From Sclerodactyla briareus (Eukaryota; Echinodermata; Holothuroidea; Dendrochirotida; Sclerodactylidae), in assembly GCA_026419785.1 (NCBI GenBank), contig JAODTK010000976.1, forward strand, positions 62,001 to 126,000: a stretch of 64,000 bases of DNA, written 5' to 3'. The notes beneath the pieces are model-generated. The model searched no databases. It was not told the DNA's origin and saw only the letters and a list, made by a program, of their open reading frames with translations. Position numbers and translations under genes: made by a program. Shown here in pieces: positions 27,040 through 54,215 of this stretch. The first letter of the stretch is position 1. Each line of letters begins with the position of its first letter.

Positions 27040-27220
27040 CAATGGGTAAATCCAAGGAAGTTCCAGAGGAGCCAAACTAACCAAGCAGGGCCCACCAGTG
27101 GCAAGAAGGACCGGCAGGGACTGCATTTCAGGCACGAATAATGTCTTCCAAGTGAAACACACTAAAGCAAATAGGACCAAGCACAAAACGAAGGCGGGTC
27201 ACTTCTCTACATTGAGCAAG
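27040..27220 (+). CDS. RBIS: RBIS (C8orf59)-like ribosome biogenesis factor, first coding exon, frames disrupted
   Basis: RBIS is a small basic nucleolar protein of about 100 residues in human that helps make the large ribosomal subunit. A pyrimidine-rich stretch ends in TTTCAG at 27039 and is followed by CA-ATG at 27042; the first codons read MGKSK, compared with MAKNK in human. A later block (about 27132-27200) reads NVFQVKHTKANRTKHKTKA, which matches the family pattern NVFxV...KxKNKAKPVTT. VTSL and LSK then appear across small frame slips. The exon ends AAG|GTGAGG, a strong donor at 27220/27221 in phase 0. The pieces lie in different frames, with slips near 27057, 27132 and 27200, so the exon cannot be translated as it stands. 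Sequencing indels or a decayed gene would both explain this; intact splice sites rule out a processed pseudogene. Identity is from memory of the family, with fair confidence. Confidence 0.62.
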
Positions 27221-28222
27221 GTGAGGGTATGACGGTCCTCTATGGTGCAGAGGGGTGAACTAAATGCTCCATGTAAGGTTGCAACCACAAGTTGAGGGGT
27301 CCAATCGATTCACTGCCAACTTATTACCTCTCCATTCTGGGGGATCAAAAGCCGAGAAGAGCAACGTTTGGTGATGATGAAAATCATCATGTATGAAGGT
27401 CCCCATAAAAAGTTGGTGGTTCAAGCCGCCTGGCCCTCTTGGTGGACATAACCTTGGTTCCACAGCTAATCCTCCCTGCCTGATTCAGCCTTGTATGCTG
27501 TGTATGCTACACACAGGTCATTTGACAGGCAAAGTGCCCAATTTCCTTTACCCTTCCCACCCCCATCCTGGCGTACATAATACATTCGAGTCAAAGATTT
27601 CAGGGCAGGAATGAATGTGGTGGGGGAAGGGGGTGGGGTGATCTGAGATTGTTTGGGTAAGTACTGTCAGGAAAACAATGTTGGGGGGACATTTTCCTTG
27701 GTTGTTGCATGGTGGTGGCAGGAGGTCTGAGGTGGGGATGGCCATCCGATGATTAAAATATATTCGGCCCACGATAGGCAAGATGTGGATACAGATAGGA
27801 TGAGATACACATGCATTATAGATATGTTGTATGGACTTCATTCAATGTACAAATTTCTGGAAAACACTGACATATGTCAGGAAAGAGATTTAGTGCGTAA
27901 GTTTCCCAGATTTTGAGTTCAAACCTCAAGATGGCCTTGTTGAACTTGCATGGAACATGAGTGGATATCTGAGCAAGCATATAAACATGGAGCCAGCCGA
28001 CCAGGAATTCAGAAGACCCTTGTCTGGACTTCATAGTACATCTCCAATTCGTAATTGTTTCTAATCAGTAACGTTTTGAACTACTTCCTCCATGTACCAT
28101 AGTTGATGTGAGTCATTGGGTATTGGATAATATTGCTATTCTACATTGATTGTTTCTCAATGGTGTCTGACTAATCTATATACTTCCAGTAATGTCAACT
28201 CCAGGTTTCAATCTGAATCGCT

Positions 28223-28373
28223 GTTTCTTCCATGCTGAAGTGACTACTAGGTCTCGTTAAGAGCAGGCTGTATTAAACTCCCAGCATCATGTAGTGGTTC
28301 TTTCTTTCATGCTGAAGTGACTACTAGGTCTTTGTAGAGCAGGCTGTACAATCCCCTAGCTTTATGTTAGTGG
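28223..28373 (+). repeat. Two-copy tandem duplication, period ~77 bp
   Basis: TTCATGCTGAAGTGACTACT and AGAGCAGGCTGTA recur once with about 77-base spacing, both followed by CC(C)AGC. Confidence 0.85.
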
Positions 28374-29234
28374 GGCAGAAAGGTTATGTTCCTCTGATTA
28401 TAAGTTCAGTTCGAGTTTTTTTAGCAATCACATCGATGCCAGTCTTGACACACACGCTGCACGAAATGTGGGCATATCAACCTTTCCAAAACTCCCTGAT
28501 GAAAACTATATCCTACCAGCACAGAACTTAAAACACCCTCTGTCCCCACACCCCCCATCCTCCTCACAAAACACTCACATCAACAATAATATAGAGGGTT
28601 ATGATTATGATATAAATTTAAAACAAAAGGGCGGCTTGTGACCAGTTGCAAAATTAGAGTAGTAACGATAGCCCTGTGGGTGATTGAATGAAATCGGGTC
28701 TTGCTATAACCCCAACCCAAGCAGTCATAAAGAATGTACAATTGTTGACGTGGAGTGCACCGGCGCTCATTGCCGAACGAGAACTGTAGACTCAGTCCCA
28801 CTCCATCTCCAAATTAATTGCGAGTCCGGCAGCTCGGAAGGGGCATTCGCGGCTGTGCCTGCACAAAAAACTTTTGGGTGCCCCTGTATTTTTGCTCATA
28901 TTTGCAAACATGCTAGAGACCTCATTAGTCACTGCCTAAAGCACGCAGTGGGCACTCGGATGGTGTGACTTTGTGTTTGGCTTCCCTTCAGGGACTAGAG
29001 CATCCTGCTGGTCCAGCTTGACGTCCAGGGTGGGCACAAATGTCAACACCATTCTAAAAATCATTCTGTACGAGTATGTATCTAAAACAAATTGTTTCAA
29101 ACTTGGAAGCTGCAATCACCTGTAGTTTAAACTTGATATGAGTGGCGGGGGTGTGGAAAATGGGCGAACAGGAATACAATATCCCCCCCTCCAACTCTTC
29201 CTGGCTTCATGTTCCACTTTTGGTCGGGTCTGTC

Positions 29235-29690
29235 ATGTGTTTTAACTGAACAATAAGGGTCTTTTTCAAACTAAACCTATCAAACCAACAAAATCATTGG
29301 CATGGGCCTCATGGAAAGAAATGGTGACGATGACATAGTATTAACTGAATTGAAAACCTGATCCTTATTAATTTCCTTGTCTCCCTGTTGTTCTGTATAA
29401 TGCTCTGAAATAATGCTCAAACCTGATATCTGTATTGACAAAAGGTTAAACAAATAAAAGAAACTATCCACCCAGATAAATGGTGAGCCAGACCCAACTG
29501 TTCTCCTAAACTAATGACGCATCAGTTATTTCACTCACTTTATAAAGGGTCGTAAAACGAACATTAATCCAACCCAACCAAATCATTGGCCTTGCTCATT
29601 GGAAGAAATGGTGGACGAGTAACATTGGAAACTGAACTGAACCTTTGACCCTATTTTTTCACCAGATCAGCGATGCATGATAAAACCCTA
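29235..29690 (+). repeat. Two-copy direct duplication, period ~290 bp
   Basis: AAGGGTC, AATCATTGGC, TCATTGGAAGAAATGGTG-like and TTAACTGAATTGAAAACCTG / AAACTGAACTGAACCTTTG blocks occur in the same order at 29255-29365 and 29545-29655. Confidence 0.65.
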
Positions 29691-30054
29691 ACCTGCATTA
29701 TTCACACACACTAGTGGCCAATAGTGTGTGGTTTAAAGGACAACTTCAGGATAATATAAAGAGGCTTAATATATTAGCTGAGAGAGACATGCCTCAGGGC
29801 CAAATCCGAATTCATACGACTTTCGTTACAGAGTTTACGTCCTTATGAAGTCCTTTGGCAATGTTGTATTGTGCAAAATCATGCATAACAAATGATGTCA
29901 ATATTTGCCACAACCCCTTGCAACACAATCTTTGTTTCCTATTAAAACTTCCTACATAATTTTCACTTCGAAAAACAGTCGTCTATGGAGAGTTGTTGTA
30001 TTGGTTTTTGGTAGTGTTCGAGGTGATTACTGTGAGAGAAAGACAACAGCATTC

Positions 30055-30250
30055 TGCTTTTTAAAATGTTGAATTTTAATAACAAAATGAAACACTGCCA
30101 ATACCTGACATAACTTCTGGCTGTCCAAGGCGAGGTCATGTCGTTATTATTGACACTATTGGGAATCTCCCCAATTGCTCTGCAAAATGAACCACTTTTA
30201 AGGCTAAATAACTCCACATGGGAACATCGTATTGAAATGGGGTTTGGACC
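30055..30250 (-). repeat. Dispersed repeat, inverted copy of 22540-22735
   Basis: This is the reverse-complement counterpart described at 22.5 kb. It ends with TGGGGTTTGGACC at 30238-30250. Confidence 0.65.
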
Positions 30251-30499
30251 CTAATAGTACAAGTTTTTCCATTCTCCTGATATACCCTCTGTTGTTTTCC
30301 AGACGCGGCAGGTTCGGGTCCTTTGATGGTGGGTTGGTGTCTGATTGCCTTTGCAAGCGGGAGTGGCTAGCCTAACAATAGGGTAGCCATTGCAGCAGGC
30401 CGTAGCGAGCGGGGGGGTGGTGGGAGGTTGCACACCCCCCCAAGGTATGGGTGTGGGGGTGCCTGTTCTGCACTTTTCGCTGTCCTGGGTTCGGGACCA

Positions 30500-30639
30500 A
30501 AGTAGAAAGAGGAAAGTGAAAAGAGAGGTAGAGAGGAGAGGAGGGAGACGGGAGAGGGTAGATAGTGAAAGGAAGAGAAAGTGGGAGAGGGGAGAGAGGG
30601 TGGGAAAAAAAAAAAAAAAGTAAGGAGTGAAGGGGAAGG
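30500..30639. repeat. Polypurine (GA-rich) tract
   Basis: About 140 bases are nearly all A and G on the plus strand, including an A run near 30605-30619. Such mirror-like purine tracts can form triplex DNA; no further function is claimed. Confidence 0.85.
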
Positions 30640-32174
30640 CTGTGGCTAGTTAATGGAAATGAGAATCGAAGAAAAAAAAGAACGGGAGCCAGACTTTATA
30701 TCGGCTATTTCGACTTTTGGCTCTTCATCTAGTCGCAAGAGAATGGCACAAAAACCAACCGGCAACATCTACGTGACGGGCCCTTCGCCGTCGGTGTAAT
30801 TGACGCGTGACCGAGTCTGTCGCAAATTCCTAAAAGGGTGAATAATGCGTTTCGTCTTGACATCTTCTTTTCCATGAGACTGCCAGTTCTTTGAAGTTTT
30901 TTGTTTCTGGTCCTATATTCCAGAGATTAAAAAAATTCAAGCCAGCCATTTTGCTAAAATCAATTAATAAAGAATTTCCCAGATGAACCAATGGAACAGT
31001 CGGTTTTTTTAGTATTTCGGGAATCATGCGAGCGGCAGAGCTAGAGTGCAAGGCGCGAAAGATAGAGGGCACCCCCCAGAGGTTTTTTTAATAAAAACTT
31101 CAGGCAGGAAACTAACAAACTTTGAGCACAGAATAAGTAAAAACCTGGTTAGAGATACCCTAGAATGCATTTATGGAAAGAAGAAGTACTAAATGACCGA
31201 AACTGCCGATCAATGCACTATTGAAGTGCCAAATTTTGGCGAGCTTCGCGCACAGTGGGAGTTGATGGTCTGATTCATATACTCACGGCTTGCAGTAAAA
31301 TGTGGGCATTGTTCAGGAATCGGGCACAAATTTTTGGCGTTCCAACTTGAAGGGTTCGCGTACATGGTGGGAGGGGGCGAGTAATTACTGAATGCCAAAT
31401 TTCACTGAAAAATGGCACCAATTGCATATGAGGACGTTTCATATTCAAAATTTTCCAAAGGGGAGGGGGGACACCCCATCCCCTTTGACCCCTCCCCCAT
31501 ATCCCAGTCACCATTGCCAGATCCGTCAGCAAAACATATATCTCTACACCCCCATCATCAACCTTCGCTAAGCCCCTGCAATTCAGCTGCGTCGAAGGCA
31601 GTTATCCTAATCAAAGGCGGAAAGAGGTGGCATGCAATATGATGATTGATGATAACATTCAATGTTGCATCAAAACACATACGGTATAATCTGAAAAATA
31701 TTCAATCTCATCCCCCCTTTCTAACTGGACAGGGGGAGTTATAACTAGGAGCATCAGCCCAAGCTGAGTGCTCCAGCTGTCTCCTAGTGCAAATTATCAG
31801 CCAAAGGCCAAAAAATGTGAATTAAGAAAATATCTTGTACTAGTAAGTAGTCTTAATGACACCTCATTGAGGCTATATGTTCCATTTTTGCTCATTAATA
31901 TATTTAGTATGTATATATTTATTATATTTTATTTAGATATTCGAAGAAAACATTGAAAAGAGCACATGCCAGAGAATTGGGGGAATACAGGTATAAAGCG
32001 AAATGTAACCATTTACCCATAAATCTCATTCAAGCGCCCATTTTCTCTTTGTGATACAGTAAAATGTGTGTTTTTCATTCCTTGCCAAAGTACGGAGGAA
32101 CTTGCTGTCATGGGGGGGGGGGAAACCAGGGGGTTGTGGTGTTTTGGTTGTTGGTGGTTGTTTTTTTGATGACT

Positions 32175-32570
32175 AGCATTGGTTTAAAACGATTAACTAA
32201 ACCCCACTTGGAGGATTCAAGTTCACGCTTGGTATATGAGTTCCCCATAATGAGTACATGATCCCTATTGTTTTGGGGTCAGGCAAAAGGTCTCTGAGGT
32301 CAAAGAGAGTCAAAGTCTGACAATCATGAAATCCTCGTTAGCACGAAAGTCCAGAATGCTGGTCCGATCAGGTTGGATTGGTAAGCAGCTTCCTTATGGA
32401 GATTGTTTTAGGTGCAGAACGGGGGTTAGAGTGGCAAAAATTGGGATTGTGAGAAAATGATAATTTGTCCAATTTTAGCTTGTTAACAAGACCTCGTCTG
32501 AATAGATGTAGTTCATACTTGGTAGTGAGTTCACAATAAGTACTACATGATCCCTTTTGTAAATCTGTGT
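32175..32570 (+). repeat. One and a half satellite monomers of the 16.9-kb family
   Basis: It contains ACGATTAACTAAACCCCACT, TTCCCCATAATGAGTACATG, TTGTTTTGGGGTCAGG, GTCCAGAATGCTGGTCCGAT and a second start at about 32482 (TTGTTAACAAGACC). It is the same family as 16905-18250. Confidence 0.7.
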
Positions 32571-35313
32571 GAGTATGTGAACTTGACAATGTTAGGTGAT
32601 AAGTCAGGATCAGTAAAGGAATTACTAAGCCTTTGGCTTTTTTGGTTCTGAGAAGTGTTCCCAATAAAACGAAAATGCAACCAGGCGATAGTGATTCGCT
32701 GGCCATTTCTGCCAATAAAAAATGGAAGTGTTCCCATTTAGCAAGATCCATAACCCCTATCAATATGGGGGACTTGTGTATACTGTTGGCAATGTTGTAA
32801 ATCCACTTAGTCAATGAATTCAAATTGTAGTCCCAAAAGCAGGGCATTTGCTGTCATGGTTGACTGCTGACTGACATGGCATCGAAAAAAGATGTTTCAC
32901 CCATGAAATCCGAGCCACCAGCGAACAAAAGGTGGGACCCCCTGTGTGGTTTCTTCACCATTATGGTGACATCCCACTGGAATATCATGCTGGGCAAATA
33001 TGAAGTCACATATTTACTTGAACAAATATTATCCAGCGTAAAGTATACCCCCAAAGCAGGGGAAACGTATGACCAGTAGCTCAGCTGTTAATTGCCCATC
33101 GGCCCTTTTCGTGTTGCAGCTTAATTTCTTTGCAATCGCTGTTGTTTATATTTCTCTGGTTATTCCGGTTATGTGACATATATTTTTCTCAAGATAGTTG
33201 TAGCATGGAATGAATCTTGGTGGGGGGGGGATGCAGTTATGGCCCAAGGAAAGTGCGCATGCATTTATAGCCTCACCCTATTGGCAAATTAAATGCAATT
33301 TGGGGGCCCTTAATGGACACATGTTGTTGCAATATTTGAGAAACAACAGCTGTAAGACGTCTACTGAACAGTGAAACAAAGTGGATTTTGTGTTTAAAAT
33401 TGATTAGTCGCTTGGGGCATGGGGGGTTCTGACCATCCCCCAGTTCTTGGGTTGCAGGTGCCCATATTATGCTCATCCGACGAGGCAGCTGTCAGGTACT
33501 GGTTTGCCCCAATTATGGTGCGCACTTTAAATGACTGGTCGATGGGTGTTTATTGAGTCATCATATTTGTTCAGACATTCCAAACTAGACTTGTACTTGC
33601 CATGCACTCTGAGGACCTACAGTGACTTAAAAATTATCCATTTTTGGTCAAGCACGATATGAAGTCCACAATGCACCCATTTTATTGATATCTAACTGAA
33701 AAATTGTATTAATTATGTAAATTTGACCTCTGAAAATGACTTTTATCAGGACCAACTTTCGTTTTTTTTAAAATCGGACAAAATTTGAGAGAAGTCACAA
33801 AAATTATCCTAACCCTATCCTAACCTATCAAGATTTCTTATGGTAGACAATTGTGCCCAAGTTTTGGCGTCAACAGATATTTGAAGCACTGGAAGGTTAT
33901 ACTCTAAACCAAACATTCCATGTGGAGAAGGCTTGCCTACACCCAAAAACCATAATATCCCCCGACCCAATGATTCAGTCTGCACAAAAATAAAGACATA
34001 GGTGATTAGACAAAAATAATACTAATGATGAAAATTGTGTATTTTATAATGTGCCCAATATCTACAGATGAAATCAAATGCCACGACAATAGGAAGTCAA
34101 ATAAATGTAGGAGATTCAGCACATTAGAAACAAAAAATCTTTGCGTGTGTCCGTCCAGGTGTGGTGGGACTTGTAGCCACCTTGTGGTCCTTCCAAGATG
34201 GCCGATGTGGTTTTTGAGCTATTGACCTCTTGATCAAGAGGGGATCTACCATGGGGTGACTAATAGATTTGGGTTAAAACTGTGCTGTAAGCTTATCAAA
34301 TACGGTTCATGGTCAGTGATGTTAAACAGAAAATGCTGTGAAAGTGTGCCAAATCACCAGGCTTTCAGAACCACAATTATGCCATCATGTTGACAAGCCC
34401 ACGTGGTTCTCAGGAGGCTTGACCGAGTGACCCCAGTGCTGGAATTTCCATCCTCATTTTGGGGTTTGGAAGAAAATTATGATTGTTGCAGGCATGTGGG
34501 GTGGATTGATGTCACAAAGCATGGCGTATTTTAGTCATAACCAAAAGAAATTCCCCCCCCAACTACAAATGATCGTTTACATGTGCGGTCTAAGCTCCCG
34601 CGTCCCTTTCTGCAAATTTGGTCCATATAGATCGCATATTAATGCATTAGAAAGATACATGCCAGCCACAAAACCCAGTACCCCTCATCAATTTCAATCA
34701 AGCACCCCATACCAGGTCTAACCCAGTGCCGGCCCCAGTATTATGTGTGGCTTCAAAACTGGCATATGATCGGTGCTGTATAGTCAAGTCCGGCAATCCG
34801 AGTCAGAAGTCCAGACTCGACTACAGCACTGGCATTTGTCAACTGATCATGGGAAAGCTGTTGGTGCAATCAGTCCAGCGTACAACAACCAGCAATTAAC
34901 ACATAATAATGTTTCATCTTAAATAAAAAATCACTGACCCTCTCCCCTTCCATGCCCACACGTACACAACCACACCCCTTGTTATCAGTGGTCCTACTTG
35001 GCTAATGGTAGGTGACCACTCCTAAATTAATCCAGGTTATCATTAAAATTGCACAAGTTGTGACCCTGTTTCCACTGGTTGTTTATCTTGGGGGTATCAT
35101 GCAATATGTGGGCACCAGAAGCCCATTAGCCAATCTTCAAGAAGAACCCAGGAATGTAGTATACCAGTATACTCGTTAATATTACTGTTCAGTGGACGTT
35201 TGACTGCTGTTTTGCATTAATATACATAAGAAGGCCACCTTTGCATCCACAGGTCTTAAATCATATTTTCAAATAGGAAGGGGTGAGAGCAGCCTCCCTC
35301 TTAGATCACAACC

Positions 35314-35331
35314 TCCCCCCCCCCCCCCCCC
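35314..35331. repeat. C homopolymer run
   Basis: An essentially uninterrupted C tract, one of many G/C homopolymers in the window. Confidence 0.9.
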
Positions 35332-36639
35332 ACTTCCCCCATCCAGTGTGCTATTATATATATATGTCTTTAACAGAAATGAAGGTGGCAACTTCCTGTG
35401 GTGTGATGGGAAAATTCAGTCCTGAATTACATTGAATCAAAACTGGTATGGTCCAGAGTTCTTGCAAAAAATTCATTGTATGACATAATGGCTAGGTCGG
35501 TAGCTTTGTAGCATGATATGGTTCCAGTGGGTAAGAATATGGCCATAAAATAAAGTAATTAAACAGTTTGGTGCTTTGGTAATTCCATTGGTATGTACAC
35601 AGGAATACAGGATCACCTTTACAATAATAACCTAGTTTTGAAGGGTCTGCTTTATTCACCCTGTGTCACCTGTTATTATGATCACCAAACTTGTGGTGAT
35701 ATCGTGCCACAACAACTGTGATTGTAAACATCTTCGTAGCTACAGAAGCGAAATTACATGAGGTCCAAACAGGTATAAAATTGTACCAGGTTTTATTTTA
35801 ATGCCTACCCAGCTAGGTTTTCAAACCTTATGATTAGTAACCTGTAAACCTGACCTTTCATGATTTCTGATTTCTTCATGTGAATTCCTGTATGTAAAAG
35901 AGAGCATGATATCATCTATTAATGCATGCGAATTAGCCAGGTATTTAATTCTCAAATTTATGCTGGAAAAACATTTTGATGAAGGACATGCATCTTCTGC
36001 ATCCAATTGAGCTTCAATTGTAAGGCATGACAGATTCAACAAGACCTCGCTGGCGGGTAAACCGCCAACGTGTATATCTCCACTTTCGATCAATCAAGGT
36101 GACATTGTTCGCCTTGTTTTTTTATCAGAAGGGGATTCGTGACCCAGGAAGGTGGGAGATTGGTTCCCAATGCACACACCAATGCTCTGAAATATACAAT
36201 CTGCAGTAAACATCAGTTCTGTCCGAATTAAAAATGGCGCCAGGTTGGGTCGTAAAACAATCGCATGAATCGAAACGTGCAAATTCCAGTGGCTGAAGGA
36301 TTGCATATTTCGTAACAAGGTGAAGAGGCACAAATTACAACTTTTGACACGCAACCAGCTGAAAATTATCAAGAATGTGGATTATTGGGGGAAAACTGAT
36401 TTTTGGTCAAATTTTTGACTTTTCAAATATATGTTCTTTTTTTCAACATATTTAGGGATTGGAAAAATTTAATGGTTCCAATTTTCATAACGAGGTTTTG
36501 AGACAAGGAGTTTTAATTCCCAGCATTTATGCTGGACGAATTCCTGAAATTTTCTATGAACATGTTTTTGTCTCAACCTGAACCAAAGTCAGGAAGAGGA
36601 CTATTGATCCTGAGAATAGTCGATAGATGTGGAGTATCA

Positions 36640-36888
36640 TGTCTAATTTGCATAATTCAGGCAATTTTATTCACATTCCACAAAACTTATACTCCTTTGG
36701 TAGACATGGTCAATAATCAGTCCTTCTGAATTTGAAATTGTTCACTGATAGTAACTTTCCTGTTAAATGCTAATGCCAAAATCTGGAAGCAGCACATGGA
36801 ATGTCTTATAATTGTTTGCATTAGGGACTGATGAGAACCTGACCGTCTTCTCGACAACCAGGGAGACATAGGTGATCGCCTTGTGTTT
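36640..36888 (+). mobile_element. HINE-like family, 3' fragment (copy C)
   Basis: CTAATTTGCATAATTCAGGC, CACAAAACTTATACTCC, GTCAATAATCAGTCCT and GTGATCGCCTTGT match the 3' 220 bases of copies A and B2. The 5' part is absent or has decayed beyond recognition. Confidence 0.6.
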
Positions 36889-37460
36889 TCCTTTTCGGGA
36901 GGGGGGACTGCTGTTTTCAGATGTATTTTGACAACTTTGCGAGATGATTGGAGGGAGATATTACTGGGTAGTTTAACATTTCCAGGGGTGCCCACGTGAC
37001 ACTATAACTATGGGGATTGCCCTCTTGTTTCATTTCATTATTCATGTAACTCCAGTGAACTTTTCTCTTTTCACCTCCTGCCCTCAAAATGATTCCCCTT
37101 TCTTTGTTTGCTCCTTCCCAAAAATCCCCCAAACCCTCCTGGCCACTTTTCTTCTCCAAATTTACTGACTCTCAATGCAATATGGTTCATTAAGCAGAGT
37201 GTGGAACAATGCCTTATTCTGCACAGAGATATTGAAGAGAATTCAGTCTATAATTTGTAGTAGATAATTCCTATTTTTTTGAGATAGACATCTGCAGTTC
37301 CTCCAGTTTAAGCAGGGTTGACAGGGTGATTAATTTGTCATTGTTATCAGCCAATCACCCCCACTGTGGTGCCAAAATCAGTAGCATGGTGCTCCACTAG
37401 GTCACTATCATCAGGTCATAAATTACTATTGAATAGGCACTGGTTCAGCAGTCCAATACT

Positions 37461-38127
37461 CTGTGTTCACATGTGATGATGCATGCGCCATCACACCACA
37501 ATCCACGTTGCGGTCAACCCGTATTCTGTTCACATGTGCACCCATCGTCATGCATTTGGATTTAAAACATAGGCTAGTATGTATCGCTACCAAATACAGC
37601 CAAAATTATGTGCCAATGTTTAAAAATAACTGAAATCACAAACATCAAACTGGTGAGACTAATCGAATATGAACACAGCGATCCAAGCGCCAACTAGTTT
37701 CGCGGTGTACCAGCTAGTGCACCACCTACTACCAGTGATTCTGAGACACCGATACAGCGGGTTTTAAAAGACGGTGCACCAAGATTTTAGGTATATAGCG
37801 TTCACCCCGCAGGGAGAACTTCTCAGTGGTTAGTTAGTCTCTGGCGATTTTTAATTGGGACCCCTATGTCAATACCCTTATTGTAGTGTCACAAATCAAC
37901 AGGATTATCTCTCTAGTATCGATGCGCTGGATTGCACATTGGTTTACACCTTGTGAAGCAATGATCTTGATCACACGTTGCGTTCACATGGCAATTTGAT
38001 GACGGGTTGATGACACGAGGTGGATCTTGATGATTGTACACCAGCTGTGATCTTACACAGGAGCGGCATTTTGATGGCACGTCTGTTCACATGGACATTT
38101 TGATGACAGGTTGACCCACCGGGACAA

Positions 38128-38186
<59 letters not shown>

Positions 38187-38227
38187 GCGTGATCAGATGA
38201 CGCGTACGTTATCACATTTGATCACAG
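37461..38227. mobile_element. Miniature DNA transposon with 32-bp terminal inverted repeats
   Basis: The left end (37461-37492) begins CTGTGTTCACATGTGATGAT; the right end (38196-38227), reverse-complemented, begins CTGTGATCAAATGTGATAAC. They match at 25 of 32 positions, and most differences are transitions. The repeats may extend outward to CAG at 37446 and CTG at 38243. Inside, GTTCACATGG ... TTTTGATGACAGGTTGA-type words repeat. No transposase is present and no target duplication was found. Confidence 0.6.
38128..38184. repeat. 57-base poly-G run
   Basis: Fifty-seven consecutive G lie just inside the right end of the miniature element. The true length may differ because homopolymers are error-prone. 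Confidence 0.9.
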
Positions 38228-38626
38228 GGGTGGGATAGTCCTGTTTGTAGGTACACATGATTGACCTCAGGAAAAGGGCAGCCCTGTGCAGGTGGAGAGG
38301 GGGTGGGGGGGTGTCAGAAGAAAACCTAAAATCAGTCAGTCACCTTGGTAGGGAACAGTTATAAACTCAAGACCAATTACATGACAAGTGCGACCTGGAT
38401 TCTGGCATTGGCTAGTAGGGTAAAAGCTTCCAAATCTTTGGTAGGAGGGTAACTTATTTTGAGTGCTAGGTGGAATAGTGATTTTGTTGCCTGTGTTTAT
38501 GTACAATCAATCAGCAAGTTTTTCAACTGATAAAAAGTCTACCTCCCAAACTTGCGAGTGTCCTGCATGTAGCTACATCAAGTCCTCATGTCACAGATGA
38601 TGCGCAATATCTGTTCTGGCTAGTGG

Positions 38627-39140
38627 CAAGGGTGGCGCCAGCGAGGAGGGGGGCAGGGGATCCATGCCTCCCTCCATCGGAAAACTCTTGCCCCCCACCC
38701 CCGTTGGGGATTTTTCCCATCTCCGCGGGGAGCCCGAGTGGGTACGCTAACATTCACACAAGACCGGACACCTCGAAGAGGGCCTATTCCCAGAACAGTA
38801 GAATATCTCAAACCTTCTTTATAGCAAAAATTCTTATATTGTTATTTTTTGGCGCGCTTCACACGCTTCATATCTTCGTGATATTGCCAGTTCTTCCTCA
38901 AGTTTACAGAGCAGCGTATCCATCCTGCTATCTTCCTACATACTAACAATCGTGGCATATATAGATAGAATACATGAGTTTTATGAATATCTTCGCAAGG
39001 TTCTGCAAAAAGATTAATGTTACAATTTTGTTGGGGAGGATGATCGTTCTACCGTCTACCACTTGGACCCCCGTCGGGGAACTCAGACCCCCCGTCGGGG
39101 AACTCAGACCCCCCGTCGGGGAAATCCTGGTGCCCACACC
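38627..39140. mobile_element. hAT-like non-autonomous transposon with target-site duplication
   Basis: The element is flanked by direct repeats GGCTAGTGG at 38618-38626 and 39141-39149 (8 or 9 bp depending on the exact end). The left end is CAAGGGTGGCGCCAG; the right end, complemented, reads CGGTGTGGGCACCAG, which agrees mainly in the inner part. The 8-bp duplication and the CA(A/G)GGG-type end fit the hAT superfamily. The interior is GC-rich at both ends and has no transposase frame. Confidence 0.6.
39066..39125. repeat. 21-bp tandem repeat, three copies
   Basis: CCCCCCGTCGGGGAACTCAG units sit near the right end of the hAT-like element. Subterminal repeats like this are common in such elements. 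Confidence 0.9.
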
Positions 39141-40284
39141 GGCTAGTGGTTATTGTATTGTAGATATTTGATATCCTTTGTTAGAGTAAGGATCAGCATA
39201 GTAGGATAGGGTTAGCATAACCAACTTCAGAAGTTCTTCCAGATAGCAAACCCACCGAGGACCTCCATTCAGCGCTAATACAGACGGATGCAATCTGATG
39301 ATCTCGCCTAGATTCTACTGTCCCAGGTCCGTAGGAAAGTGGATTGGATATGGGAGAGTGCAGAGTCATGACTCCGTACAGCTCTCGCAGATTTTAATTC
39401 CGCTGTGGATGTTTCGTCAACATTAAAGATTGATCGCTGATTGATCTCTGGGCCAGTATATGGTCTCTAGGGGAATAATCCTCATTGTCATATGGCCCCA
39501 TCAGTGAGAGGAAAATAGAATACGGTTAATTCAAATAAAAGATGGGATCAATCCGGTACAGTTGCTTGGTGCATTGCATTATTAGCACATTAACCTAATT
39601 AGTTGTTTGACTAATAAACGGGTGGTTTGCAATACATCGGGGTTCTGATGACTCTGTTTCCCTGTGGACTGTGTGACACATAAATAGATTAAATGCAATA
39701 ACATGTACTGCTCTGTTTGAGTCCTCTGTCTCATGGCCACCCATTCATCTGAAGCGTTTCATTACTCCTTCCCTTTCATATTCCTCATCAGTTCCCACCC
39801 ACTAGGCCCTCATCTCGTTAGTCTCCTCCTCAATAATCTGTCTCACTATAGTCCCTTGTCCCAAATCAATACATTAGACCTCCTGATGTATTGAAAATTT
39901 CAAGCTGTGTTTACTTAGCATGCGAAACATGTACAGTTGAATAGTCTCATGTGGATCGCACTCGCGAAGACTCCTCATTTGTTTTCTCAATTAACATTCT
40001 CTTGGCATACAGATCAAGAACTATGGAACATGGACTAAATATCTTTGTTACTCAGATTGAAGGCCATGTGGTATAGTGTAGTTTCCAGTAGGGTTTCTCT
40101 CTACATATTCAGTTTCATACTGCATCATACTAAAGTGTAATGAGGATTCTACAACCCTGCTCGTGTTTTTTTACGGACCTACTACATGCTGATTTGCTAA
40201 ACCCAGTAACGCGACTGTCCTCTATTCTGTGTCAACAACCTCGTATCCTATCAATTTAAGACTTGTTCAAGTTGTCAGGTCCAT

Positions 40285-40925
40285 TTTCGGAATCACGCAG
40301 CTGGTCATAGTACCACACAATCGAATACTGGCTCGATTTGCTAGGTCAATAGGTTAAACGCGTACGTTCAAAAACCAAATGTGGGGTTCGTGAACCTATC
40401 GGGAGTTTATGTTTCACACGCGCAACCTGTTCCGATTATACGCGCGTTCAAGGTGCACTTGCTCAACGAATCAAACGGGCGAAACGACGCATCGCTCGTT
40501 GCATTGGAGAACGCCATGTTCACACGCACAGAACCCTCCAGTTCGGCACGCGTGGTTTGTATTGCGTCTCCGTACGCACAGCACGCACTGCCAATCTTTT
40601 GTGTATGGTGCGAAATGCAATTCACCTTGATCAAACTAACGCAATAAGTTACCCTAGCTGCTTATTTACTGTTTAGAGATACAAAGATATAGATCTAGAG
40701 ATATAGATATCTCTAATCGTTCGGGTAATTCCTGATTTGTGGGTTTGTAGAATAGGAATAAAACTACAGAAGGTCGACTTTTACTGGTTCATAAAACCAG
40801 TCTCGACTCTGAATTTAGCCTAATAACGAACTCGGCTGCCCTCGTCCGTTATTTTACCTAAATTCATACTCTCGACTGTTTATTCGCCAGTAAAAGTCTC
40901 CCAGTTGCAGTTTATCCCTTAAATC
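40285..40925 (+). repeat. Dispersed repeat, copy 2 (partner 22010-22500)
   Basis: This longer copy has a CpG-rich middle (40350-40610) whose open frames on both strands reflect low stop density rather than a gene. It shares the TTATTTACTG(T)TTAGAGATAC and TAATAACGAACT blocks with the partner. Confidence 0.65.
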
Positions 40926-41979
40926 CCCCTCAGGGGGTGTTCATTAGGTATGTAGATGCATGTACCCCACCCCCTGGGTTCCACTATCGCCACAACTCAT
41001 GTGCGCCAAGTAGACCATAGAGTAGGTGTCTCCTGTGGGACCCTTGAGGCGGGGGGGGGGGGGGGTGGGGGGGGGTGGTTGACTACAAACATCAGCCAAG
41101 GTTTGATTGATTGAGAGGCTAGTCAATTCCAATGAAACTCACAATAGCTATTGAAGTATGTAATTGATTTTGTTATTATAGTAAGGATGTACGACTGCCT
41201 GATGGATTATAGTGACATGGCTGACCTAATATGTGTTGCGCAAAAAACATGTCTAGAAACCTTTGATGGGGGTGGGGCATGACTGGTTGCCGACCTTGGG
41301 GGCCAGGTTCCCTTCCCGGTTGGATCATTTTTGCTCCCTGAGATGCGAAATGGTGCAAATGTGAACAATGTCAAGCAACAATATTCAATTTTTAATGCCT
41401 AAATTCTTTAGTTGTTTGGTTGAACTGTCAATGAAAGGGGGGGGGGTGGGGTGGAACAGGGCTGCCCCCCCCTCCCTGGATCCCCCCATGAGTCCAATCA
41501 TGAAGCTAGCTCCATGGTCATAATACAATTATGTAAAGTTGACTAGACCCTCGGTACTTTCGATTGTATCAAGGAAATTCAACCCTTAAACAAGATATCA
41601 GCTTATGTGCGCATGTAAATGGCACAATCCACTACTTCCTTAATGTGACATTTTGAGAGAGGGTGAAAAGCCTCTGTGATACCAAGCCAATGCAAAGCAA
41701 CATATTCTTTCAAAACCTGTAACAAATGAAAAGTAACTGGCATGTGAATGAACACTGGGAAGCTACATGCAAAAGTTGGAACATTTTTTGCGTAAATCCT
41801 CGTATCTCCCCTGTCCCACTGACGTCAATAATCCTTCAAGTTCAAGTACATTGAATTAACTCAACAAGACAGTATGCTAAAAATCTTCAACTTCGGGGTG
41901 TGGAGTTTCGATATGAACGTTTTCCCCAGCCAAATAATATCTGACAATATGATTAATCTACATTTTTGGCTTTTGGCAG

Positions 41980-42095
41980 GTTTTAGACAAGAAGAAGGAC
42001 TACCAGCTACGAAGGTTAACCAGGAGTACAGGGAACTCCAGGACATGCTGCACAGATCATCAGTACCTCCAGCATCAACGCAGAAAAAGAAAGAG
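41980..42095 (+). CDS. RBIS: RBIS-like second coding exon
   Basis: A good acceptor (TTTTGGCTTTTGGCAG) ends at 41979. Entered in phase 0, which is the phase left by the donor at 27220, the exon reads VLDKKKDYQL, slips one base near 42010, then reads KVNQEYRELQDMLHRSS. Human RBIS at the same distance after its VTTNLKK motif has a helix with the pattern VNxxFxxVQxxL; here VNxxYxxLQxxL fits residue for residue in spacing. Phase, spacing and motif agree independently. A lysine-rich tail (QKKKE) ends at a weak donor GAG|GTCAGA at 42095/42096, so the 3' boundary is the least certain part. The expected C-terminal motif (VNVDEA...L in human) was not found next to it. In another frame the sequence stays nearly open to 42306, which is discussed as a separate finding. 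Confidence 0.5.
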
Positions 42096-48400: not shown

Positions 48401-50009
48401 GTATGACTCGGTGATTGGATTAGCGCAGGTGGCATGGCTTTGGATTAAGACTGCATATTGTGGGTTTCAGGGGCAGACCTTTCCCAGTTTCTTTGGGTGA
48501 TACACTTGTCCCCACCCCTCCCAGTGATAATTGGACCTGTGAGGAACCTGAATAAAACTTTACATTACCTTGCTGCAACATACTCCCATGGACTGTTCTT
48601 GTGTGTGGGCTGGATGGTATGGGTGGTATACGCAACATATGGCAGCTGGCCTATGGACTGTGGGCATACTCAGGCTATGGGGGAATAGGTTTAAACCCCC
48701 CTCAGTTTGCCGAAGAATCAGCTCTTGACAAATTCAGTGATAATTTTTTGATATTTCATTTTGAATTGAAGCCCAAACACTGCACCATTTGCCTTCCTAA
48801 TTTTTTTTTTTTTTTTTTGGTTTGTAGAAGGGTGGGGGGGTGTTATTTGCCTTTCCCCACCCAGATTTGGGAAACAGCCCCACCCTCCCCTATGTCGACT
48901 TTCTGCATGCATATGGAAGTAGCCAAACAACTTCTGACTACTGGTGGGTCACAAACTCCCTGTTGCCCTAGGGGAGGGAGGTGTAGGGTTGTTATTGCCT
49001 TCACCCAAATTTTGAGAACAAGGTCAAAGGTCACGAATCCAGTTGGCCTCAGGGTTTATGTGGTAGATGTTTCCTACCACTTACATTTAGGCTTCATCTC
49101 AGATGATCTAACACGAATTATTGCAATCTGTTTCTTTCTGTAATAGTTTATTAGGCTCATCTGACAGGGAATTGCCTCCCATATTTTTTTCTCCATACCT
49201 CATCTAGTGGCAAGGTCTGTTTACCATTTTTCAATCGAAAATGTCCCAAGGAAATTGTCATGAGCAAGAACCACTAACCCTAAAAGGTAATAAAATGACC
49301 CACTACAGATGAAGGTCACCAGACAAGTCAAGTCAACAAGCAGCTGGTTAGACTGTATAGTATAGCCCTGAAAGGCCAATGGGAATATTTTGACAGGATT
49401 TAATTGAATATTGGCCATACTAATAAACACACGGATCAAAACATTGATTTTATGACATCTCTGCAAACAGGCTGTGTCCTGAAACTTTAGCCATAAGCGC
49501 ATAATGCTGTAATGCTTCATTCGTTTAATCTGAAACTTGGTAAACATGTTGCCCTTATAGTACGTGGATTGAGATCAAAAGTGGGAATTATGCATGCGCT
49601 CTCTATTTGGGATTGCGGGTAAAAAATACCGGTGTTGTGTTAGTCAAATGAAAGAAAGAATAGGTGGGTGGGGTTGGTAGGTGGGTTGAAAGTTGGTCCG
49701 GAAAAATGGGCAGGTCACGGAGGGCAAATCTGTGTTTGTATCTCGTTAAGTTCGTCGGATTTGAACCAAAATTTGTGAATGAGACTGTGTTAGTCATAAC
49801 AACTTAGGAAGTCATGTCAAGGTCAAAGGAGGTCAAATGGACTGATTTGATGTGCTATCTTTATGAGTACCACACAAAAGTAAGTTCTTCGGGATTTTAC
49901 CGTCGGCCTTCACCCGCCCGCACATGTCCAGTCCTTTGTATCTTCATGAGCTTTAGTCATCTGGGACCAGACCATACTGTTCTCTTAGGTTTATATGCAC
50001 CTGTCAACT
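45401..50009. other. No gene recognised
   Basis: It includes a TAGGCCTAGGC-rich patch (45637-45770), C runs near 47967-47990, an 18-T run (48801-48818) and a repeat block at about 49690-49930 related to 54690-55110 (GGAGGTCA(A/G)ATGGAC ... TTTGATG). A 180-codon frame at 48601-49143 crosses the T run and has no domain. Confidence 0.4.
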
Positions 50010-50520
50010 GAATGACGCACAACCCAATACCAGGCCATAGTCAGTCAAATGTGAGTCATAATTGGCAGTTATGTCACTGTCAAACTGCATGACGCACCCC
50101 AAACCCTGGCCATAGTCAGTCCAAATGGGAGTCTAATAGCAGTATGTCACCTGTCAACTGCATGACGCCAACCCCAATACCTTGGCCATAGTCAGTCAAA
50201 TGGTTTGGGGTGTCATATTGGCAGTAGGTCACCTGCAATCTGCATGACGCAACCCAATACCCTGGCCATAGTTAGTCAAATGTGAGTAATAATTGGCGTA
50301 TGGTACCTGTCAACGCAGACGCAACCCAATACCCTGGCCATAGTCAGGCAATGTGCGTCATAATTGGCAGTATGTCACCATGTCAACGGATGACGCACCC
50401 AAGACCCTGGACAGTCCAGTCAAATGTGAGTATAATTGGCAGGATGTCGCCATGGCAACTGAGGACGCACCCCACTACCCTGGCATAGTCAGTCAAATGT
50501 AGTATAATTGGCAGTATGTC
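50010..50520 (+). repeat. ~75-bp minisatellite, about seven copies
   Basis: Each unit contains CATAGTCAGTCAAATGTGAG, TCATAATTGGCAGTATGTCA, CCTGTCAACTGCATGACGCA and CCCAATACCCTGGC. Copies differ mostly by one- or two-base losses. Confidence 0.9.
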
Positions 50521-53814: not shown

Positions 53815-54215
53815 AAGTGAGTGCATTAGAGTGTAAGGGAGTGAGTGCATTAGAGTGTAAGGGAGTGAGTGCATTAGAGTGTAAGGGAGTGAGTGCATTA
53901 GGGTGTAAGGGAGTGAGTGCATTAGAGTGTAAGGGAGTGAGTGCATTAGGTGTAAGGGAGTGAGTGCATTAGGGTGTAAGGGAGTGAGTGCATTAGAGTG
54001 TAAGGGAGTGAGTGCATTAGGGTGTAAGGGAGTGAGTGCATTAGAGTGTAAGGGAGTGAGTGCATTAGGGTGTAAGGGAGTGAGTGCATTAGAGTGTAAG
54101 GGAGTGAGTGCATTAGGGTGTAAGGGAGTGAGGGCATTAGGGTGTAAGGGAGTGAGGGCATTAGGGTGTAAGGGAGTGAGTGCATTAGAGTGTAAGGGAG
54201 TGAGTGCATTAGGAT
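53815..54215. repeat. 24-bp minisatellite, about 17 copies
   Basis: GAGTGCATTAGAGTGTAAGG-GAGT units alternate AGAG and AGGG variants. Because 24 is a multiple of three, both strands stay open as 8-residue repeats (MHSLPYTL on minus). One copy near 53949 has lost a base. Confidence 0.95.

Follow-up and report, generated by a model that had tools for sequence, protein, structure and literature searches.

RBIS (C8orf59), which we take to be a protein needed for ribosome assembly, is represented in Pfam by DUF4665 (PF15679); in human RBIS 36 bases lead from the initiation codon to the NVF codons, and the vertebrate protein carries a C-terminal VNVDEA...L motif. No functional study of RBIS/C8orf59 was present among the literature matches listed, and a search for a solved RBIS structure returned none. 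The other system with which the present locus can be compared is an artefact: one report describes, for small genomes, how long-read indel errors falsely pseudogenise genes (PMC12007338).

In the window, that is, the whole 64-kb stretch of DNA analyzed here, two candidate exons resemble RBIS/C8orf59 (PF15679) in presenting, in the same order, an MGKSK-like start, an NVF block, a K-rich block, and a V-N-x-x-[YF] stretch, but they differ from it in their interrupted frames, in about 60 extra bases after MGKSK, and in a VNVDEA-like C terminus that was not found. As in the false pseudogenes described in PMC12007338, frame slips lie within otherwise conserved genes, but the genomes there are small and the slips here occur without homopolymer enrichment. 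We consider it likely that the locus is a single-copy animal RBIS gene of which two coding exons are seen, probably intact in life, whose frames were broken by assembly error.

The two RBIS-like exons and the predicted intron

The first RBIS-like exon (27040..27220, + strand) is read as coding from an ATG at 27042, where MGKSK (ATG GGT AAA TCC AAG) is encoded, and an acceptor-like ...TTTCAG/CA lies two bases upstream. The block NVFQVKHTKANRTKHKTKA (NVFQV...KHKTKA) starts at 27140 in a frame different from that of MGKSK, as the earlier note had described, and reads on to the donor at 27220/27221. The distance from the ATG to NVF is 98 bases, and the stretch 27057..27139 holds about 60 bases more than vertebrate RBIS has there. 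The exon reads KHKTKAVTS where the human and zebrafish proteins, alike at these positions, have KNKAKPVTT.

The second RBIS-like exon (41980..42095, + strand) follows a phase 0 acceptor at 41979/41980, TTTTTGGCTTTTGGCAG/G (also given as ...GGCTTTTGGCAG/G). It reads VLDKKKDYQL in phase, changes frame, and continues with VNQEYRELQDMLHRSSVPPASTQKKKE from 42015, so that the VNQEY stretch at that position (VNQEYRELQDML) is shifted relative to the acceptor, from which it is separated by 35 bases, no multiple of 3. Both the acceptor and the VNQEY stretch had been proposed previously and are indeed present. At its 3' end the exon has a weak donor, GAG/GTCAGA, at 42095/42096.

The first exon would be spliced to the second across a predicted intron at 27221..41979 (+ strand; 14,759 bases, phase 0, GT...AG), a prediction drawn from the rarity of the donor core and the rank of the acceptor. 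The donor AAG/GTGAGG, previously called perfect, is present at 27220/27221 and fits 8 of the 9 places of the consensus. Its core, [AC]AGGT[AG]AG, has just two instances on the + strand of the 64-kb window, one of them exactly at the end of the first exon. The acceptor was ranked in a contest among all acceptors with a pyrimidine-rich tract from 27.3 to 63.5 kb, which were given equal freedom to slip and scored against the human and zebrafish RBIS sequences. An open path was available for 149 of the 310 acceptors, and 41980 came first with a score of 35, followed by another acceptor of the same exon (24), while the best path outside that exon reached 15. By this sequence comparison, the second exon, given the first, exceeds chance.

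Within the predicted intron there is an uninterrupted run of 57 G (38128-38184). A scan of the window for runs (G/C of at least 12, A/T of at least 14) returned 17 others, 14 of them G or C; the long G runs could be genuine or could have arisen in sequencing.

Frame slips in the exons and in conserved genes of the assembly

Two net frame slips are forced in the 295 coding bases of the two exons, and two more are optional, which gives 7-14 per kb. The first forced slip falls within 27057..27139 (+ strand), in the same stretch as the ~60 extra bases, and accounts for the frame change from MGKSK to NVFQV. The second lies approximately at 41998..42014 (+ strand), between KHKTKA and VNQEY and ahead of the latter. 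The optional slips would form a compensating pair at 27194..27215 (+ strand), around the conserved V-T-T that is read here as V-T-S, and the frame is open without them. The earlier count of at least three slips is thus reduced to two that are needed, the further two, around 27196-27210, being a matter of choice that restores V-T-S.

The frequency of such defects in the assembly was determined with conserved genes located in its 319 Mb (3171 contigs) and aligned, with slips allowed, to human proteins. Over 10,238 aligned bases of actin, HSP70, and tubulin exons, 105 frame slips were counted, i.e. 10.3 per kb, at an identity of 86% (2926/3388 residues); slips were found in 19 of the 23 pieces kept and were absent from 4. 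Overlapping segments of 297 bases from these genes carried a mean of 3.2 slips, with 3 or more in 42 of 88. In the actin pieces kept, slips numbered 7, 2, and 5 at the three loci, and the HSP70 pieces carried from 0 to 8 each; 4, 11, and 17 were counted in the large alpha-tubulin exons and 25 in a beta-tubulin exon, each over 1.1-1.3 kb. When intact alpha-tubulin genes were simulated (6 per identity level), the spurious slips introduced by the aligner stayed at 0-0.6 per kb for identities of 75-95% and reached 1.6 per kb for 65%; at the identity of the control genes, the spurious rate is about 0.6 per kb. Exon pieces scoring below 200 or less than 60% identical were left out of the count, e.g. 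the first actin piece of L034 (7 slips, 51/100 identical), an actin piece of L035, one HSP70 piece of L037, and two of L039. The CCT loci (L041-L044, L058) and L040 did not enter the alignment. CCT itself was represented by only 4 pieces in 319 Mb, with internal stops in 3 of them. The rate of 10.3 per kb is probably an underestimate, because the control loci were those that matched in profile searches.

The control slips run in both directions (types 2/4/5/1: 49/37/13/6), and they were not enriched at homopolymers, the only context examined. Their clustering is mild (variance/mean 1.5 over 55 bins of 100 bases in 6 exons), and the rate varies by locus from 0 to 21 per kb. In the beta-tubulin exon at 1171-2454 of L057 (reverse-complement coordinates), 18 of the 25 slips fall in the first 470 bases and are followed by about 320 clean bases, showing that errors occur in patches. 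Patchy slips without a homopolymer link would be in keeping with uncorrected single-molecule long reads; the assembly would then have a small indel about every 100 bases, with an uneven spread, as in an uncorrected long-read consensus.

Unrelated conserved genes in the assembly thus show equal defects, 10.3 slips per kb against about 0.6 spurious ones, in support of the earlier suggestion of assembly error. The slip density of the RBIS-like exons is typical for this assembly. Since the control genes carry an equal slip density, the defect of the RBIS-like exons is what a typical gene piece here shows, and since conserved genes are equally broken, slips in this assembly do not count as evidence of decay. 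Those in the two exons considered here would then be of the assembly-error kind. Against an average error rate near the gene stands a tandem array 11 kb downstream, with one off-length unit in 397 bases, and the local error rate may be below the assembly average; no other gene that could serve as a local control was recognized in the inspected parts of contig C970, which took in, by eye, the open reading frames of 20 kb of flanking sequence. The array (53816-54212) is a clean one of 24 bp with 16.6 copies, 96% matches, and one unit of 23 bases, and a second array at 49994-50520 (~72-73 bp, ~7 copies) is more diverged, with 11-12% indels.

Some further observations concern the same loci and assembly. 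At the actin loci L020, L021, L023, L026, L029, and L032, some matches lie in open frames of 462-805 amino acids, which exceed the actin exons, and L060 (4787-5890) has overlapping open reading frames in which similar words recur by eye, as if in a short tandem-repeated element. HSP70 matches are confined to two contigs of the whole genome, and COX1 gave no match in it, in a search that may not allow for the mitochondrial code. The assembly is noisy and, with COX1 unmatched, HSP70 limited to two contigs, and CCT seen as 4 pieces, perhaps incomplete.

Copy number and the C-terminal exon

The same broken frames could belong to a genuine unprocessed RBIS pseudogene, which would have lost its function and be accumulating frame changes with introns and splice sites still in place. 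The change from KNKAKPVTT to KHKTKAVTS, at positions where the human and zebrafish proteins agree, the surplus bases of the first exon, and the C-terminal exon, missing from the window and the next 10 kb, would all fit such a gene. The search for the C-terminal VNVDEA...L exon covered the window and those 10 kb of a contig that extends about 49 kb further, and the motif is short and the assembly garbled. Regular expressions run on the window for a third exon gave one match, which was rejected as unconvincing. A 15-residue scan scored at best 21 downstream of the second exon, whereas other places on the + strand reached 28 and the minus strand reached 24; in the 10 kb past the window the best score was 17.

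The equal rate at which conserved genes are broken in the assembly argues against a pseudogene, and so does the copy number. The DNA of each exon was found at a single place in the genome. The protein piece of the second exon matched only its own place, and that of the first matched itself and, at an E value of 1.7, C2282, which was judged by eye to be a chance hit. With the DNA of either exon and the two protein pieces as probes, no second RBIS copy was found, and it is unlikely that the assembled sequence contains a near-identical duplicate. A six-frame search of the genome with the DUF4665 family gave no match even at an E value of 10, and the zebrafish RBIS protein gave none either, but both searches also missed the exons of the window itself, so that they carry little weight. 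If RBIS is needed, its presence as a single copy lowers the likelihood of decay. The decaying gene that the earlier note had offered as its other reading has no evidence of its own, no intact second copy having been found to free it, and we regard a pseudogene as unlikely.

Relationship to the RBIS family and fate of the gene

A single-copy RBIS gene broken by assembly error presupposes that the exons belong to RBIS at all, and the scores against DUF4665, whose curated cut-off is 27 bits, depend on the way in which the exons are read. When the two exons were joined by hand, the reading matched DUF4665 at 40.0 bits (E value 6.1e-10, profile positions 1-75 of 99), along a path that was picked by eye and leaves out the ~60 extra bases of the first exon; a reading that retains these bases scored 25.0 bits, below the family cut-off. 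The human and zebrafish proteins score 127 and 120 bits, respectively. From the first exon alone, a hand-joined reading of 38 amino acids reached 27.2 bits, and a 28-amino-acid piece, in which one base near its end is skipped and the NVF and K-rich blocks cover profile positions 11-34, gave a weak match of 18.2 bits (E value 0.0039). The unedited frames of the first exon (51 amino acids, and a 64-amino-acid version in which Q was put in place of one stop) matched no Pfam family, nor did the unedited frame of the second (55 amino acids), and the hand-joined second exon on its own (40 amino acids) did not match DUF4665. Whether the profile match exceeds the cut-off thus depends on which edited reading is taken, and the frames as they stand give no match. 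Elsewhere in the window, 10 of the 73 long open reading frames were compared with Pfam and gave no match, and no tRNA and no Rfam family were detected.

These null results leave room for the view that the locus is not RBIS, and that short motifs have met by chance beside chance splice sites. In agreement with it, a slip-tolerant alignment of the vertebrate proteins to the window placed the first exon at the top on the + strand, with scores of 47 for human (an alignment whose end overruns the donor, to 27260) and 40 for zebrafish, but the best scores over 8 simulated windows were 36-50 and the real minus strand gave 48 for human and 40 for zebrafish. By vertebrate alignment alone, the first exon is therefore inside the null range. 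Chance would have to account, on the other hand, for the first place of the second exon among 149 paths, by 35 against 15 outside that exon, and for a donor core that is found only twice on the + strand and once exactly at the exon end. It would also have to account for the 40.0 bits, since six decoy second-exon paths joined to the first exon, from a pool of 148, gave 28.1-32.5 bits; these decoys were among the top scorers of the acceptor contest, three high ones having been skipped, two of them because they overlapped the real exon and the third for reasons of space. We therefore hold a chance encounter to be quite unlikely. The RBIS identity previously proposed is not proven by the rank of the second exon and the edited 40-bit reading, but on these comparisons the gene is probably RBIS-like.

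Two readings fare worse. That RBIS has truly been lost, its only copy having decayed recently and being still spliceable, appears very unlikely. Programmed frameshifting, in which the organism would read through the slips in translation, would suit the frequent slips of conserved genes, but it is extremely unlikely given that slips run in both directions, that their number differs between gene copies, and that homopolymer length, the sole context examined, shows no bias.

Taken as a single-copy RBIS gene with assembly-broken frames, the locus would encode a protein with the role in ribosome assembly that human RBIS has, and the gene beneath the broken frames, if RBIS, probably belongs to a known family without being unusual in it. 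Since even tubulin, HSP70, and actin carry about one slip in every 100 coding bases, caution is needed with this assembly, and claims of pseudogenes, gene loss, or frameshifting made from it need the reads first. Should RBIS truly be lost here, a ribosome-assembly factor would be dispensable in some animal lineage.
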